Assembly (NCBI GenBank): GCA_001486445.1
Contig: LN908986.1
Location: 195,498 to 259,497 of the forward strand
Direction of reading: 5' to 3'
DNA from: Hugonella massiliensis
Lineage (GTDB): Bacteria > Actinomycetota > Coriobacteriia > Coriobacteriales > Eggerthellaceae
Length of the DNA: 64,000 nucleotides
Translations under genes and position numbers: made by a program
Notes under the pieces: generated by a model
Databases searched by the model: none
The model's input: the letters and a program-made list of their open reading frames with translations, nothing else
What the model was told of the DNA's origin: nothing
Shown: positions 20,496-63,728 of the stretch, piece after piece
How positions within the stretch are numbered: the stretch's first letter is position 1
Layout of the letters: each line of letters opens with the position of its first letter

Positions 20496-21272
20496 TTACG
20501 CCCCGTGCACCGCTTCCGCCATGGCGCGGACGTAGTCGCCCACGGGGCCCGCCGCCTGCGCGCCTTGGGCGCCTACGATCCGCACGATGGCCGAGCCGAC
20601 GATCGCGCCGTCGGCCAGGCGGGCCATCCGCGCCGCCTGCTCGGGCGTCGAGATGCCGAAGCCCACGGCGACGGGCACGTCGGTCGTCCGGCGGATGGCG
20701 GCCACGATGCCCTCGAGGTCGGTCGTGATCTGGCTGCGCACGCCGGTGACGCCCAGGCTCGACACCAGGTAGATGAAGCCGCTCGCCTCTTTAGCGATTA
20801 GGGCGATGCGGTCCTCGCTCGTGGGAGCGACCATCGCGATGAGGTCGATGCCGTGGGCGGCGAAGGCGGGCGCGAACTCGTCGCGTTCCTCGAAGGGCAC
20901 GTCGGGCAGGATGATCCCGTCGATCCCCGCTTCCTCGGCCCGTTGGGCGAAGCGCTCGATCCCGTAGGAGAAGATCACGTTGGCGTAGGTCATGAAGACC
21001 AGCGGGATGTCGAGGTCCTGCCGCAAGCGGACCACCATCTCGAAGATCGCGTCGGTCGTGGCGCCGGCCGCCAGCGCCCGGGTCGAGGCCTCCTGGATGA
21101 CCGGCCCCTCGGCCGTGGGGTCGGAAAACGGGATGCCGAGCTCGATGAGGTCGGCGCCGGCGTCCGCCATCGACCGCACGACGGCTTCGGTGGTTTCTAT
21201 TGTCGGGTCCCCGCAGGTTACGAACGGGATGAATGCGTTCCCCTGTGCGAACGCGCGTGCAATCTTGCTCAT
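20496..21272 (-). CDS. trpA: Tryptophan synthase alpha subunit
   Basis: A 258-residue TrpA. Visible landmarks are the N-terminal FIPFVTCGDP, the catalytic Glu in DLIELGIPFSDP (E49-type position), the Asp in GIDGIILPDVPFEE, the YLVSSLGVTG loop and the phosphate-binding VGFGIS...GAIVGSAIV. It cleaves indole-3-glycerol phosphate to indole and glyceraldehyde 3-phosphate and passes the indole through a tunnel to TrpB. Its ATG overlaps the trpB stop by one base (TAATG), so it is co-translated. It is the last gene of the trp operon on this side. No clear terminator is visible before the lut region. Confidence 0.96.
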   Translation of the reverse strand: MSKIARAFAQGNAFIPFVTCGDPTIETTEAVVRSMADAGADLIELGIPFSDPTAEGPVIQEASTRALAAGATTDAIFEMVVRLRQDLDIPLVFMTYANVIFSYGIERFAQRAEEAGIDGIILPDVPFEERDEFAPAFAAHGIDLIAMVAPTSEDRIALIAKEASGFIYLVSSLGVTGVRSQITTDLEGIVAAIRRTTDVPVAVGFGISTPEQAARMARLADGAIVGSAIVRIVGAQGAQAAGPVGDYVRAMAEAVHGA

Positions 21273-22462
21273 TACAGATCGATGTCCTCTCCGCGGTAGC
21301 GGGCGATCGAGGCGCAGTCCTTGTCGCCTCGGCCCGAAATGGTGATCACGATAACCTGGTCCTTGCCCATCGTGGGCGCGAGCTTCATGGCATAGGCCAC
21401 GGCATGGGCGCTTTCGATGGCGGGGATGATGCCCTCCATGCGGCTCATGTACTCGAAGGCGCACACCGCCTCTTCGTCGGTGACGGGCACGTACTGGGCG
21501 CGGCCGATGTCGTGCAGGTAGGCATGCTCGGGGCCGATGCCCGGGTAGTCGAGCCCGGCCGATATGCTGTAGACGGGGGCGATCTGACCGTACTCGTTCT
21601 GGCAGAAATAGCTCTTCATGCCGTGGAAGATCCCCACGCGGCCCGTGTTGATCGTCGCGGCCGTCTCGAGCGTGCCCACCCCGCGACCGGCGGCCTCGCA
21701 GCCGATGAGCTGGACATCGGGATCGTCGATGAAGTGGTAGAAGGTGCCCGCCGCGTTCGAGCCGCCGCCCACGCAGGCGATCACGGCGTCGGGCAGGCGG
21801 CCTTCCGCTTCGAGGATCTGCGCTTTGATCTCCTTGGAGATCACGCTTTGGAAGTCGCGCACGATCGTCGGGAAGGGATGCGGGCCCATCGTCGAGCCGA
21901 TGCAGTAGTGGGTGTCGGCCATGCGGGTCGTCCATTCGCGCATGGCTTCCGACACGGCGTCCTTCAGCGTGCCCGTGCCCGTGTCGACGCTGCGGACCTC
22001 GGCGCCCAGCAGGCGCATCTTGTAGACGTTGAGCGCCTGGCGCTCGATGTCGACCTTGCCCATGAAGACGACGCATTCCATGCCCATGAGCGCAGCGGCG
22101 GTGGCGGTGGCCACCCCGTGCTGGCCGGCGCCCGTTTCGGCGATCAGGCGGGTCTTGCCCATCTTTTTGGCGAGCAGGGCCTGACCGAGCACGTTGTTGA
22201 TCTTGTGGGCGCCCGTATGGTTCAAATCCTCGCGCTTCAGGTAGATCTTGGCACCGCCCAGGTCATCGGTCATCTTCCGGGCGAAGTAGAGCAGGCTCGG
22301 ACGGTTGGCGTAGTTGTTCAGCAGGTCGGCGAGCTCGGCTTGGAAGGCGGGGTCGTCCTTGTAGCGGGCGTAGGCCTCTTCGAGCTCGATGACAGCATTC
22401 ATCAGGGTTTCGGGCATGTACTGCCCGCCGTGAATGCCGAAACGTCCTTCGGGATTGGTCAT
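21272..22462 (-). CDS. trpB: Tryptophan synthase beta subunit
   Basis: A 396-residue PLP enzyme that joins indole and serine. The PLP lysine is in [14 protein letters not shown], the glutamate loop in [10 protein letters not shown] and the phosphate-binding glycines in [10 protein letters not shown]. Start 22462 has AAGGAG 7 nt upstream and opens [19 protein letters not shown], the normal TrpB start, so the coding region is complete. Only about 36 bp of genuine upstream sequence remain before adapter sequence starts at 22499. Its upstream neighbours (rest of trpC, and trpF) are therefore missing from the assembly and its native context cannot be read. Confidence 0.97.
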
Positions 22463-22498
22463 GGGGTAACTCCTTCGGTTGTGGGGAGAGAAGAAACG

Positions 22499-22838
22499 AG
22501 ATCGGAAGAGCACACGTCTGAACTCCAGTCACGCCAATATCTCGTATGCCGTCTTCTGCTTGAAAAAAAAAAAAAAAACACAACCTCCCAATGGTCCCAC
22601 CATCCATCATCCCACTATTGAATCAAAACATCCCACCCATCTATGTCCACCTCTAACACACATCAGCCACATTAACACCCTTATAAACCTACGTTTCTAT
22701 AACAAAGTATGCACGTACGTTATCTGACTCGACCCCTACACTCCCCATCTACACTCTCTCACAATCTTCTAACCTCTACGTCTGACCTACCCATACACAC
22801 CGGTCGGTTAGAGAGTGCTAGGTGTGTATAGGAGGCAG
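22499..22838. other. Assembly artefact: Illumina adapter, poly-A and low-complexity noise inside the trp operon
   Basis: From 22499 the sequence is the TruSeq index adapter: it begins AGATCGGAAGAGC, carries index GCCAAT at about 22533-22538, ends CTTCTGCTTG at 22562, and is followed by 16 A (22563-22578). The next 240 bp are AT-rich, C/T-skewed noise unlike the surrounding high-GC DNA. The last 19 bp (22820-22838) match the Nextera mosaic end at 16 of 19 positions, with all three differences A to G. Real coding sequence (trpC) resumes at 22839. Nothing in this stretch should be treated as genomic, and the small open frames in it are meaningless. Confidence 0.97.
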
Positions 22839-22901
22839 GGCGCGGCGCGCCGCCACGCGGGCTCGGGCCGCATCGGCCAGTTCGTCGAGAACGGTTGCCA
22901 T
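22839..22901 (-). CDS. trpC: Indole-3-glycerol-phosphate synthase, N-terminal fragment cut by artefact
   Basis: The first 21 codons of a gene starting 23 nt after trpD (ATG at 22901, ribosome site AAAGGA). The peptide MATVLDELADAARARVAARR has the character of a TrpC N-terminus (ILD.I...AR.RVA). The frame then runs into the artificial sequence and stops there. The rest of trpC (normally about 260 residues), and trpF if present, should lie between here and trpB but are absent. Identity rests on the short peptide plus position in the trpEGDC order. Confidence 0.7.
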
Positions 22902-22924: not shown

Positions 22925-23947
22925 CTAGCGGTTCGATTCCGCGACGAAGGCCTCCAGGGTCCGTTCGGCCGCGCCGCTTTCGATCTGATGCGCGGCGAGC
23001 GCGACACCCTCGCCCATGGTTTCGGCCGCGCCAGCCGCATAGAGGGCCAGGCCCGCATTCAGCAGGACCACGTCGCGCTTGGCGCCTTCGAGCCTGCCGG
23101 CGAGAATATCGCGCGTGATCTGGGCGTTTTCGGCCGGCGTGCCGCCCACGATATCGTCTTTGGTTCCGCGGGCGAGCCCGAAGTCCTCCGGCGCAATCGT
23201 CTGGGTGCGGTAGAACCCGTCGCGAATCTCGCACACGGTCGTGGGGGCCGAAATCGATGCTTCGTCAAGGCCGTCCTGGCCGAAAACCACCGCGCCGCGG
23301 CGCACACCCAAGCTGGAGAGCACCTTGGCGAGCGGCTCGACCAGGTAGCCGTCGTAGACGCCCAAAAGGAAAAGCGAGGGCTTGGCCGGGTTGGTGAGCG
23401 GCCCCAGGATGTTGAAGACCGTGCGGATCCCGAGCTCTTTGCGGATGGGGCCCACGTACTTCATGGCCGGATGGTACTTCTGGGCGAACAGGAAGCACAG
23501 GTTGCAGGCTTCGAGTTCCCGGCGGGCCGCCTCCGGGTCCTGGTCGAGGTTGACGCCCAGGGCTTCGAGGCAGTCGGCCGTGCCCGACAGGCTCGAGGCG
23601 GCGCGGTTGCCGTGCTTGGCCACCTTCACGCCCGCGCTCGCCACGATGACCGCCGCCGTGGTGGAGATGTTGAAGCTGTGCGCGTGGTCCCCGCCGGTGC
23701 CCACGATGTCCATCACTTCCATGCCCGGATGCGCTACCGGGGTGGCGAGCTCGCGCATGGCCGCCGCGCTGCCCGATATCTCGTCGAGCGTTTCAGCCTT
23801 GGTACTCTTGGTGGAAAGCGCCGCCAGGTAGGCCGCGTTCTGGGTGGGCGTCGTGGCGCCCGTCATTATCTCGCGCATCACCGCGTAGGCCTCGTCGTAG
23901 TCAAGGTCTTGCTTGTCGACGATCTTCTTGATTGCCTCTTCGATCAT
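22925..23947 (-). CDS. trpD: Anthranilate phosphoribosyltransferase
   Basis: A 340-residue TrpD. It shows the PRPP-binding [15 protein letters not shown] loop (GTGGD), the KHGNRAASS motif near residue 106, the GPLTNPA anthranilate-side motif and the DEASI metal-binding region. It transfers phosphoribose to anthranilate in the second step of tryptophan synthesis. It lies between trpG (84 nt upstream) and trpC (23 nt downstream). Length is normal for the family. AAAGGA precedes the ATG. Confidence 0.97.
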
Positions 23948-24031: not shown

Positions 24032-24610
24032 TCACCGCGCCCGGGCGAGGCCGATGAAGTTCGTAAGCATCCGCCCACCTTCGGGCGTCATGATGCTCTC
24101 GGGGTGGAACTGCACCCCGAAGGTGGGATGCTCCACATGGGACACCGCCATCACCTCCCCGTCGTCGGCGCGGGCCGTGACGGCCAGGCAGGCGGGAAGC
24201 GTCGACTCGTCCACGGCGAGCGAATGGTAGCGGGCCACGGGCGTTTGGCTCGGGCAGCCGGCGAAGAGCGCGTTGCGCGCGTCGAGCGTCACGACCGACT
24301 GCTTGCCGTGCATGAGCCCCTTCGCGTAGCCCACCGTGGCGCCGAAGGCCGCGCAGATTGCCTGATGGCCCAGGCACACGCCCAGTAGGGGCACCGTGCC
24401 CGAAAGCTCGCGGACCGCCTCGATGCAGACGCCGGCGTCTTCCGGGCGGTGGGAGCCCGGCGAAAGCACGATGCCCGCCGGATCCAGAGCCGCGATCGCG
24501 TCGACGGAAAGCTCGTCGTTGCGCACCACCCGGACATCGGGCTCGATGCTGCCGATGAGCTGGTAGAGGTTGTAGGAAAAGCTGTCGTAGTTGTCGATGA
24601 GCAGGATCAT
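24032..24610 (-). CDS. trpG: Anthranilate synthase glutamine amidotransferase component
   Basis: A 192-residue class-I glutamine amidotransferase. It has LIDNYDSFSYNL at the start, LSPGSHRPEDAG, the nucleophile Cys in GVCLGHQAI (near residue 79) and the His-Glu pair in FHPES near residue 170. It supplies ammonia from glutamine to TrpE. The start ATG overlaps the trpE stop, so the two are coupled and made in equal amounts. The usual proline of the LSPGPG motif is replaced (SPGSHRP), a modest deviation. It could also serve as PabA for folate synthesis. Confidence 0.95.
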   Translation of the reverse strand: MILLIDNYDSFSYNLYQLIGSIEPDVRVVRNDELSVDAIAALDPAGIVLSPGSHRPEDAGVCIEAVRELSGTVPLLGVCLGHQAICAAFGATVGYAKGLMHGKQSVVTLDARNALFAGCPSQTPVARYHSLAVDESTLPACLAVTARADDGEVMAVSHVEHPTFGVQFHPESIMTPEGGRMLTNFIGLARAR

Positions 24611-26073
24611 CAGCGCAACGCCTCCGCTTCGTCGAGGGCGGCCACCATAGCCGCGGCTTTGTTGATGCATTCGCGGTACTCGCGTTCGGGCACGGAATCG
24701 GCCACGATGCCCGCCCCGCTGCGCACGAACACGCGCCCGTTCTTCTTGTAGGCGAGCCGAATGCCGATGCAGACGTCCAAATCGCCCGTGAAGGACAGAT
24801 AGCCCACCGCGCCGCCGTAGATGCCGCGCTTGTTGCCTTCCAGGTCGTTGATCAGCTGGCAAGCCGCGAGCTTGGGCGCGCCCGAAAGAGTGCCCGCCGG
24901 CAGGACCGCGTCGATGCAGTCGAGGGCGTCCAGGTCGTCGCGGATCTCGCCACGCACGGTCGACCCGATGTGCATGACGTGGGAGTAGCGCAGCACCTCA
25001 TGAAGGCCTTCCACCTCCACGGTGCCGAACTTCGACAGGCGGCCCAGATCGTTGCGGCCCAAATCGACGAGCATGTTGTGCTCGGCGAGCTCCTTGGGGT
25101 CGGCCAGAAGGTCGGCTTCCACGGCGGCGTCTTCGGCGGGCGTGGCGCCGCGCGGGCGGGTGCCCGCCAACGGGAAGGTGTGCAAGACCCCGTTTTCCAG
25201 CTTGACGAGGGTTTCGGGGCTCGCCCCGGCGACTTCCACGTCGGTGCCGGTGAAGTAGAACAGGTAAGGGCTCGGGTTGATCGTGCGCAGGGTGCGGTAG
25301 GCGTTGAGCAGCGTGCCCTCGTACCCGGCTTCCAAGCGGTTGGAGAGCACCACCTGGAAGATGTCGCCTTCGCGGATGTGAGCCTGGGCCGTGCGCACCA
25401 TGTCGCTGTAGGTCGCCTCGTCGAAGAGCTCGCGGGCCGGCGTGGTGAGGTGGCCGGGCTCGTCGGGGGCCATCTCGCCGTCGGCGAGCAAGCGCTCCAT
25501 CTCGTCGAGGTCGCGCAGGGCCTTGCGGTAGCCGGCTTCGCCTTCGCCCAGGTCGGCGTCGACTATCAGCAGGATCTTCTGCTTGCAGTTGTCGAAGACG
25601 ATGACCTTGTCGAAAAGCATGAGGTCGACGTCCTTGAAACCTTCGGTATCCTGCGCGTCGAGGCGCAGGGTGGGCTCGGCATACTTCAGGTAGTCGTAGC
25701 TGAAGTAGCCCACCAGCCCGCCGGTGAAAGGCGGCAGGCCGTCGACGCGCGGCAGACGGTAGGCATCGAGCAGCTGGCGGAGATAGTCGCTGGGGCGGGC
25801 GGCGTCGATCTTCAGGGCGCCGGCTTCCACATGGCCGTTCACGCAGGTGATGCCCAGTGTGGGCTGGTAGCCCAGGAAGGAGTAGCGGCCCCATTCGCGG
25901 CTCTCCCCCGCCACGCTTTCCAGAAGGAAGCAGTGGTCCGACACGTTGCGCAGCATGCGCAGCACGTTGACCGGCGTGTAGGCGTCGCTCATGATCTCGC
26001 GCGCCAGGGGCACGCGCGTGCAGCCTGCGTCCGCGGCGATTTGCACGGCCTCGTCGTAGGTGAAGTTCACCAT
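24610..26073 (-). CDS. trpE: Anthranilate synthase component I
   Basis: A 487-residue chorismate-using enzyme. The C-terminal catalytic core is complete: GDIFQVVLSNRLE, the PSPYLFYF strand, the ASPETLVK loop, AGTRPRG, the DLGRNDLGR Mg/chorismate site, LPAGTLSGAPK and IRLAYKKNGRVFVRSGAGIV. The N-terminal region contains the LLESVAG feedback-site element (LLES, tryptophan-inhibition motif). Start 26073 follows AAAGGA at 8 nt; a longer frame to 26124 would run into the leader terminator and is unlikely. It makes anthranilate from chorismate. The operon is led by a T-box riboswitch and a strong intrinsic terminator directly upstream. Confidence 0.97.
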   Translation of the reverse strand: MVNFTYDEAVQIAADAGCTRVPLAREIMSDAYTPVNVLRMLRNVSDHCFLLESVAGESREWGRYSFLGYQPTLGITCVNGHVEAGALKIDAARPSDYLRQLLDAYRLPRVDGLPPFTGGLVGYFSYDYLKYAEPTLRLDAQDTEGFKDVDLMLFDKVIVFDNCKQKILLIVDADLGEGEAGYRKALRDLDEMERLLADGEMAPDEPGHLTTPARELFDEATYSDMVRTAQAHIREGDIFQVVLSNRLEAGYEGTLLNAYRTLRTINPSPYLFYFTGTDVEVAGASPETLVKLENGVLHTFPLAGTRPRGATPAEDAAVEADLLADPKELAEHNMLVDLGRNDLGRLSKFGTVEVEGLHEVLRYSHVMHIGSTVRGEIRDDLDALDCIDAVLPAGTLSGAPKLAACQLINDLEGNKRGIYGGAVGYLSFTGDLDVCIGIRLAYKKNGRVFVRSGAGIVADSVPEREYRECINKAAAMVAALDEAEALR

Positions 26074-26108
26074 GGCCCTCGTCCTTTCCGACCCGAACGG
26101 GTCTTCGA

Positions 26109-26415
26109 AGGTTCGTCGGGGCATAAAAAAACGCCCTCGACGGAACCTCTTGCAGTTCCCTCAAGGGCGAATCTTCGATCCGCGGTGCCACCTTGATTCA
26201 CGGCTCGCGCCGTGCGCTTAGCGGAATGCCATCACATTCCCGGCTTCTTACGCGAGCCCTACGTCGCGGAATACTTGCACTGCGTGCGTTCCCCGCGCCC
26301 TCTACGGTCCATTTGACAAGTCGTGTTGTGCCCGATTTCCACCATCGCGGGCTCTCTGTGACAGCGTGCGTGCCGTTACTTCCGTATCAACGGTTTGTCG
26401 CTCTTCGGTTGTGAA
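26109..26415 (-). promoter_or_regulatory. T-box riboswitch leader of the trp operon
   Basis: On the minus strand the leader contains the T-box sequence AAGGTGGCACCGCG (26194-26181), the region that pairs with uncharged tRNA acceptor ends. It is followed by an intrinsic terminator. Upstream lie Stem I features, including AGAGAGCC and a GGTGGAAA stretch near 26350. The triplet UGG in AAATGGACC (complement of 26311-26309) is a candidate specifier codon for tRNA-Trp. Uncharged tRNA-Trp would stabilise the antiterminator and switch on trpEGDCFBA. Boundaries are approximate. Confidence 0.9.
26125..26169 (-). terminator. Rho-independent terminator of the trp T-box
   Basis: On the minus strand a CGCCCT...AGGGCG stem with an inner GGAAC/GTTCC pairing is followed by seven U. 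It lies just after the T-box sequence and 52 nt before the trpE start. It competes with the T-box antiterminator. Confidence 0.9.
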
Positions 26416-36030: not shown

Positions 36031-36772
36031 TTACGCCGAAAGCGCCGCCCCGATCGCACCCGCGAAACGCGCTTCGCGTGCGCACCGGCGCCCCCAGGGC
36101 AGCCGCCAGGCGCTCGACCACGTAGGCGTTGTCGCAGAGGCCGCCCGTGAGGAAGTAGACGTCGGCGGGCAGCTTGCCGGCAAGCGCAGCCACGCGCGCC
36201 GCGATCGACTCGACGACGCCGCTCGCGATGTTTTCGGCCGGCTCGCCTTGCCCCACGAGCGAGATGACCTCGCTTTCGGCGAAGACCGTGCACATGTTGG
36301 AAATGGGCGCCGGCTCCCCCGTGCGGGCAAGGGCCGCCAAATCGTCCTGGGTCAGGCCCATCCGGTTGGCCATGACCTCGAGGAACTTGCCCGTGCCCGC
36401 CGCGCACTTGTCGTTCATGAGGAACTTGACCACGCGGCCGCCCACGAGCCTGATGACCTTCGTGTCCTGGCCGCCCACGTCGACCACCACGCCGTCGGGG
36501 CCGAACAGGAAGGCCGCGCCGCGGCCGTGGCAGGTGATTTCGGTCACCGTGCGATCGGCGTAGGGCACCGCCACGCGGCCGTAGCCGGTGGCGACCACGG
36601 CATGCTCTGCTGGAGCGAAGCCCCGCCGGACGAGCTCGTCTTTCACATGAGCGGCCGTTTCGGCGCTGTTGAAGCCCGTGGGCAACAGGAGCGTGTCCGC
36701 GAGTTCGTCGCCCTCGAGCACCGCCACCTTGGTTGCCGTCGACCCTATGTCGATTCCGATGCGTGCAGTCAT
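36031..36772 (-). CDS. Acyl-CoA dehydratase activase (BadF/BcrD/HgdC family), frameshifted near C-terminus
   Basis: An ASKHA-fold ATPase, about 246 residues when corrected, with IGIDIGSTATK at the start, the VVDVGGQDTK motif and the two Fe-S ligand regions NDKCAAGTGKF and ISNMCTVFAESE. Dimers bind one [4Fe-4S] cluster and drive an electron into a dehydratase partner using ATP. The frame shifts near 36073-36080: the assembled frame continues as FRGCDRGG, while dropping one base gives FAGAIGAALSA and a stop at 36033-36031, the usual family end. It lies 8 nt downstream of the DUF3343 gene. This is the activator for the dehydratase-like protein at 39140-40414. Confidence 0.85.
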
Positions 36773-42056: not shown

Positions 42057-43697
42057 ATGACCGTCATCTACACCTGCAAGTACGCCCCCGTCGAGCTGTT
42101 CGCGGGATTCGGCGAGACCTGCGCCCCCTTCGACGACGCGCCCGAAGACTTCGCCGCCGCCGACGAGTTCGTCCACCCCAACCTGTGCGGCTTCGGCAAA
42201 GACGTCGTGCAGAAGGCCCTTTCGGGTTCGATCGACCAGCTCGTGTTGGTGAACTGCTGCGACACCAACCGCCGCGTCTACGACATCGTGAAGGCGTCGG
42301 GGAAGTGCCGCTTCGTCTACCTGCTCGACCTGCCCCACTGCACCGACGCCTGCGCCATCGACCGCTTCGCCTTCGACCTGCGCAAACTTGCGCGCGCCTA
42401 TGAGGATTTCTCGGGGAAGGCCTTCGACGCCGCCGCCTTCCGCCAAGCCTTCGTCCCCCAGCCGCCCGTCGACTACGACTACGTGGGGCTCGTGGGCGTG
42501 CGCGCCAACCATTACACCGAACAGGTGGTGCAGGCCGCTCTGTCGCTGCCCGTGCGCAACCTCACCTGCACAGGCCTGCGCAGCGTGGCGCCGATCGACG
42601 AGGAAGGCGGCGAAGACGCCCTCTTCACCGCTTACGCCGCGGCCCTGCTTGGCCAGATTCCCTGCGCTCGCATGGAACGCACGGGCGGGCGCCGGCAGAT
42701 CCTCGCCGACCCCCATCTGTCCGGCGTCGTCTACCACACGCTGCGCTTCTGCGACTACTACGCCCAGGAAGGCGCGCGCTGGCATCAAGCCGCGCAGGTT
42801 CCCCTCCTGCAGATCGAGAGCGACTACACCAAATCGGGCAGCGAGCAGCTGCGCACGCGCGTCGAAGCCTTCGCCGAAGAGCTCGAGGGCACGCAACAGA
42901 AAGGGCCCGCCATGACCATCACCGAAGACACCCTTGTTGCCGGCATCGATTCCGGCTCCACGTCCACCGACGTCGTCATCATGAACGGAAACCGCAAGAT
43001 CGTAGCGAGCGCGATCATCCCCACGCGCGGCAGCGCGAGCGCGAGCGCCGAGCGCAGTCTGCAGGAGGCCCTCGACCAAGCCGGCATCCCGCGAAAATCG
43101 ATCGCGGCCGTCGTGGCCACCGGCTACGGGCGCGACGCCATCGGCAGCACCGACAGCTCGGTGACCGAAATCACCTGCCACGCCAAGGGCGCCCACTACC
43201 TCAACCCCCAGGTGCGCACGATCGTCGACATCGGCGGCCAGGACAGCAAGGCCATCGCCATCGACGAGCACGGCAACGTGACCTCGTTCGCGATGAACGA
43301 CAAGTGCGCGGCGGGCACGGGCCGCTTCCTGGAAATGATGGCCCGCACCCTGGGCGTCGAGCTGTCCGACATGAGCGTGCTGGCCGCCAAGAGTTCGCAC
43401 GCGACTTCGATTTCGAGCACCTGCTCGGTCTTTGCCGAAAGCGAGGTCGTCTCGCTTGTGGCCAACGACACGCCCCTGCCCGACATCGTCGCCGGGCTCA
43501 ACCGGTCGGTCGCCCGCCGTACCGCCGCGCTCGCCAAGCGCGTGGGCGTACACGACGTCTGTATGATGACGGGCGGCGTAGCCAAAAACGAAGGCGTCGT
43601 GCGCGCGATCGAGGAAGCCCTGGGGCACGCGCTCGTCGTAGACGACCGCGCCCAGCTGGCCGGCGCCATCGGGGCGGCCCTCTTCGCCCTGGCCTAA
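42057..43697 (+). CDS. Fusion: dehydratase subunit plus acyl-CoA dehydratase activase
   Basis: A single 546-codon frame joining two proteins. Residues 1-280 are a short HgdB-type dehydratase subunit (NLCGFGKDVVQ, VNCCDTNRRVYDIV, IESDYTKSGSEQLRTRVEAF). Residues 286-546 are a complete BadF/BcrD activase (AGIDSGSTSTD, DIGGQDSK, NDKCAAGTGRF, STCSVFAESEV, GAIGAALFALA). The link is only a few residues, and an internal ATG at 42912 has AAAGGG 6 nt upstream, so the activase could also be made separately. Fusing the ATP-driven electron donor to its acceptor would fix the 1:1 contact. Family fusions are known with other domain orders; here the activase is at the C-terminus. I saw no frameshift that would make this artificial. 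Confidence 0.85.
   Translation: MTVIYTCKYAPVELFAGFGETCAPFDDAPEDFAAADEFVHPNLCGFGKDVVQKALSGSIDQLVLVNCCDTNRRVYDIVKASGKCRFVYLLDLPHCTDACAIDRFAFDLRKLARAYEDFSGKAFDAAAFRQAFVPQPPVDYDYVGLVGVRANHYTEQVVQAALSLPVRNLTCTGLRSVAPIDEEGGEDALFTAYAAALLGQIPCARMERTGGRRQILADPHLSGVVYHTLRFCDYYAQEGARWHQAAQVPLLQIESDYTKSGSEQLRTRVEAFAEELEGTQQKGPAMTITEDTLVAGIDSGSTSTDVVIMNGNRKIVASAIIPTRGSASASAERSLQEALDQAGIPRKSIAAVVATGYGRDAIGSTDSSVTEITCHAKGAHYLNPQVRTIVDIGGQDSKAIAIDEHGNVTSFAMNDKCAAGTGRFLEMMARTLGVELSDMSVLAAKSSHATSISSTCSVFAESEVVSLVANDTPLPDIVAGLNRSVARRTAALAKRVGVHDVCMMTGGVAKNEGVVRAIEEALGHALVVDDRAQLAGAIGAALFALA

Positions 43698-58854: not shown

Positions 58855-63728
<4,874 letters not shown>

Follow-up and report, generated by a model that had tools for sequence, protein, structure and literature searches.

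Does the trp operon of this Hugonella massiliensis assembly truly lack trpC and trpF, or were these genes lost between the reads and the scaffold? The question is raised by 340 nt that separate trpB from the beginning of trpC, at positions 22499-22838 of the window (the entire 64,000-nt stretch of DNA analyzed here, C9:195498-259497 of an assembly of 2,090,771 bases in 9 contigs). This stretch is non-genomic, with an adapter at either end; it is an artefact of the laboratory and has no biological meaning. The features assigned in and around it are the following.

20496-21275, minus strand: trpA, intact (TIGR00262, 280.4 bits)
21272-22462, minus strand: trpB, intact, bordering the gap on the left (TIGR00263, 640.2 bits)
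22499-22562, plus strand: TruSeq index adapter read-through, index GCCAAT (exact match; the 13-nt core has one other exact copy genome-wide)
22563-22578, plus strand: 16 A, base calls beyond the adapter end (the second adapter site likewise has an A run, of 13)
22579-22819, no strand: non-genomic read tail, 241 nt (composition; no relatives found)
22820-22838, minus strand: one half of the mate-pair junction adapter, the Nextera mosaic end, mismatched at 3 of 19 positions (49 matches genome-wide, none with the pattern reversed)
22839-22901, minus strand: trpC remnant, first 21 codons (similar to the beginning of trpC in G001, a genome of the same genus)
22925-23947, minus strand: trpD, intact, bordering the gap on the right (TIGR01245, 407.7 bits; 91% identical to G001)
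24032-24610, minus strand: trpG, intact (TIGR00566, 198.5 bits, over the cut-off)
24610-26124, minus strand: trpE, intact open frame (best match TIGR00564 trpE_most, 482.8 bits, below the cut-off of 517.7; operon position)

Sequence of the 340-nt stretch

Positions 22499-22562 are identical, at 64 of 64 nt including the leading A, to the string AGATCGGAAGAGCACACGTCTGAACTCCAGTCAC-GCCAAT-ATCTCGTATGCCGTCTTCTGCTTG, the TruSeq index adapter with GCCAAT as the index; exactly 16 A follow directly after it (22563-22578). An exact 64-mer is not a product of chance. The 13-nt core of the adapter has only 2 exact copies in the 2.09-Mb genome, one at this site and the other at C9:189259, which also sits in sequencing adapter. 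Allowing 2 mismatches brought the core down to the chance level: the window then had 1 match where 1.75 would be expected, and the genome had 31, counting both exact copies, compared to 30 for the reversed control. It is therefore the exact 64-mer that carries the argument. The initial annotation, which had identified the exact TruSeq adapter, its index and the 16 A at 22499-22578 and had interpreted them as library sequence rather than biology, was correct to the base.

The artefact is, nevertheless, larger than the 80 nt then delimited: positions 22579-22819 are non-genomic, too, and the right border is formed by a second adapter. These 241 nt (70 A, 90 C, 22 G and 59 T) are C-rich and G-poor, with a GC fraction of 0.46 compared to 0.647 for the window. 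In a search of 21 genomes, they matched only themselves, with nothing detected in the 20 relatives, and they had no match in the phage or the plasmid collection that was searched. A degraded adapter within the 241 nt was considered and rejected: in local alignments with 3 adapters in both orientations, 30 to 270 of 300 shuffled sequences aligned equally well. At the right border, the minus strand of 22820-22838 reads CTGCCTCCTATACACACCT; this mosaic end, which deviates at 3 of 19 positions, directly adjoins the trpC remnant at 22839. No recognizable mate sequence was found at this site. The scaffold is continuous around it, with no N.

The artefact also affects the predicted open reading frames. 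In the mechanical list of such frames, a plus-strand frame (21233-22621) renders the adapter as a peptide followed by a run of K, and the minus-strand frame of trpB (21272-22513) starts inside the adapter, at 22513, where the trpB start could be placed by a gene caller. No paper on the adapter-derived peptide EEHTSELQS turned up in a literature search.

The trp operon in relatives

The stretch cuts trpC down to 21 codons. Apart from this remnant, trpC (PF00218) was not found over the cut-off in the whole assembly, and neither was trpF (PF00697), for which there was no match at E 1; each of these searches was positive in 14 of 14 control genomes. A single 11.5-bit match (E 0.14) was the one candidate for a relocated trpC and was disregarded against the cut-off of 27. 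Thus, the earlier expectation that both genes would be missing holds for the entire assembly. The borders proposed earlier, 22498 and 22839, agree with the alignment to the same-genus genome, where similarity ends at 22478 and resumes at 22840.

In G001, the operon is intact, in the order trpE-G-D-C-F-B-A, as deduced from open frames along with family and protein matches; trpE runs off the stretch compared. The window and G001 are 90.6% identical in the left flank and 87.7% identical in the right flank, and between the aligned blocks there are 1402 nt in G001 compared to 361 in the window. Both flanks are collinear with G001, which indicates that the scaffold link is right. Judging from this alignment, gene order and orientation across the join are correct, whereas the bridge is false. 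The initial annotation had considered the join false and synteny unsafe; this assessment stands for the 340-nt bridge and for the apparent loss of about 1.4 kb, which are both false, but not for the order of the genes.

Among the 21 genomes (the assembly under study included), trpD, trpC and trpF were matched in 6 each. In each of the 5 further genomes where trpD was matched, trpC and trpF are present as well, so that trpD without these two genes occurs only in the assembly under study; one genome (G019) matches trpC and trpF but not trpD, and 14 of the 21 have no match to any of the three. The suggestion that the pathway is probably complete in the organism gains support from the intact operon of G001 and from the 5 of 5 trpD-carrying genomes, and trpC and trpF are probably present in the living bacterium.

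Mate-pair junctions across the assembly

The mosaic end was searched for in the assembly with up to 3 mismatches in 19 positions, the reversed pattern serving as the control. This search yielded 49 matches in 2.09 Mb, including the site in the window, against 0 for the reversed pattern. After merging matches within 60 nt, 30 sites remained, 18 of which have both halves head to head with a 19-nt offset; the site in the window is among the 12 that do not. The mosaic end joined to its reverse complement makes a 38-mer, the junction adapter of the Nextera Mate Pair kit. This 38-mer is exact at C7:116809, and another 13 of the junctions examined carry it with 1-5 mismatches. It is printed as a fragment-circularizing adapter in an excerpt of PMC7357533. 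The mosaic-end sites are untrimmed reads of a mate-pair library. Their 79 mismatches in all (among them 22 T>G, 18 T>C and 18 A>C) are consistent with low-quality base calls. Runs of 201 N at C6:54720-54920 and C9:169880-170080, each no more than 230 nt from a mosaic-end site, suggest partly filled scaffold gaps.

If these sites derive from mate-pair fragments, the sequence past a junction is predicted to belong to the opposite fragment end and so to have its origin on the same strand, kilobases upstream. This prediction was examined at 14 of the 18 head-to-head junctions. The site C9:189180 consists of the junction, 41 nt, the TruSeq universal adapter, an A run and noise; these 41 nt are identical to C9:186083-186123, on the same strand and 3.1 kb upstream, as mate-pair chemistry predicts. 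At C9:1159328, the 49 nt past the junction match sequence 2.2 kb upstream (96%), and at C9:1189492, 400 nt match 4.5 kb upstream (99.5%), but inside a duplicated block. The match at C5:34334 (53 nt, 94%) lies 9.1 kb upstream, but starts only 53 nt past the junction. There was no upstream match after the junction at the other 10 of the 14, where contig ends may have been joined on shared adapter, or the mates may lie outside the stretches compared.

Several other places in the assembly drew attention. About 6 kb before the window, C9:189178-189558 forms a second adapter bridge, made up of a junction, the 41-nt mate, the TruSeq universal adapter, 13 A and C/T-rich noise; it spans 381 nt compared to 100 nt at the same place in G001. 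A 2.7-kb block occurs twice (C9:1184946-1187640 and 1189530-1192223, 99.4% identity) and has one place only in G001. Each copy has a mate-pair junction a short way inside its right end, and a further junction immediately precedes the second copy, so the repeat is probably a false duplication. Two 16S rRNA genes in opposite orientation, about 450 nt apart (window 62216-63726, that is, C9:257713-259223, and C9:259673-261183), may be real or a further assembly error. Self-comparison of the window also revealed an inverted pair of about 0.36 kb with 68% identity (36253-36601 and 43107-43461).

Origin of the artefact

Trimming of junction adapters is the usual remedy for such adapters. In the part of PMC6298255 available, it was done with NxTrim. 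The Hugonella massiliensis AT8 draft is reported in PMC5552949, cited here from extracts, to comprise 2,091,845 bp in nine scaffolds with six 16S genes and a G+C content of 63.46%. According to these extracts, a barcoded Nextera Mate Pair library was prepared without size selection (fragments of 1.5-11 kb) and sequenced on a MiSeq at 2 x 251, trimmed and untrimmed data were both assembled, and GapCloser was used. The reads are described there as trimmed before assembly, so the step that admitted the adapters is undocumented in the extracts of PMC5552949. The assembly under study also has six 16S genes and appears to be the published AT8 draft, the two being 1,074 bases apart, with a G+C content of 65.0% (263 kb of the assembly) compared to 63.46%.

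The 340-nt stretch is almost certainly an assembly artefact of a Nextera Mate Pair library sequenced on an Illumina instrument, probably produced when a gap was filled with untrimmed reads. In the proposed scenario, mate pairs would have linked the contig with trpA and trpB to the contig with trpC and trpD, and the gap between them would have been filled by reads with untrimmed adapters. On the left, a read would have continued past the end of its fragment into the TruSeq index adapter, followed by A calls and, after these, noise; on the right, a read would have left trpC for the mate-pair junction adapter and then noise, and the two noisy tails would have met somewhere inside 22579-22819. Judging by G001, about 1.4 kb, encompassing most of trpC and all of trpF, would thus have been replaced by 340 non-genomic nt. 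We infer that the bridge was made by gap filling rather than by the primary assembly.

One alternative is that trpC and trpF were truly deleted in the strain and the adapter bridge merely sits at the deletion point. No trpC or trpF was detected over the cut-off although the assembly is estimated to be 99.89% complete, and pathway loss is common in the order, with none of trpC, trpF and trpD matched in 14 of the 21 genomes. A deletion joint, however, requires genomic sequence on either side, whereas both joints here are adapter; trpC and trpF are kept in every one of the 5 further genomes where trpD was matched; and the second adapter bridge, too, is found where the relative has sequence of its own (100 nt in G001 against 381). 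We consider a true deletion very unlikely, and likewise give little credence to its corollary, a strain without trpC and trpF that needs outside tryptophan or indole and carries a half-decayed operon in a lineage in which the pathway has been lost from most of the relatives searched. That the bridge is a real DNA insert in the chromosome is suggested by its position inside a continuous scaffold without N; with commercial adapters at both ends and a middle part without relatives in the 20 other genomes, phages and plasmids searched, the probability of such an insert is practically nil.

The remaining alternatives accept an artefact and differ on its kind or source. A chimeric misjoin of non-neighboring places could be invoked given that the bridge itself is false and that a structural error is likely elsewhere, at the 2.7-kb near-identical repeat. 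The flanks, however, belong to one operon in the order and orientation of G001, with 90.6% and 87.7% identity, which makes a misjoin extremely improbable. Mate-pair kits ligate TruSeq adapters. The presence of two kinds of adapters at the borders of the stretch could still reflect two libraries, TruSeq paired-end and Nextera, instead of one mate-pair library, a distinction that concerns the source of the artefact and not its nature. At C9:189180, however, the 41 nt of a genuine mate separate the junction from the TruSeq universal adapter, as would be seen within a single read, and the extracts of PMC5552949 name one mate-pair library, so that two libraries are unlikely. Gap filling with untrimmed mate-pair reads remains the explanation that we favor.

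The case calls for caution in that a draft scored as 99.89% complete would nonetheless be read as devoid of two tryptophan genes. With 30 mosaic-end sites and a likely false 2.7-kb duplication in the same draft, the problem is genome-wide.

Comparison with known adapter sequences

The Nextera Mate Pair junction adapter is 38 nt long and contains both halves, whereas the site in the window retains only one recognizable 19-nt half, with 3 mismatches. The left border, in contrast, has direct counterparts in public assemblies, in the form of the same full TruSeq adapter, with any index, left untrimmed. At least 120 stretches of this adapter were detected in species-representative genomes, indicating that adapter left in public genomes is not rare. 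Among the matches listed (80), most come from two metagenome-assembled genomes and a few from isolates, such as Corynebacterium sp. SN15. The setting differs: in 78 of the 80 matches listed, the adapter lies, as judged by eye, within about 200 nt of an apparent contig end, whereas here it is inside a 1.48-Mb scaffold, where it bridges a gap in an operon.
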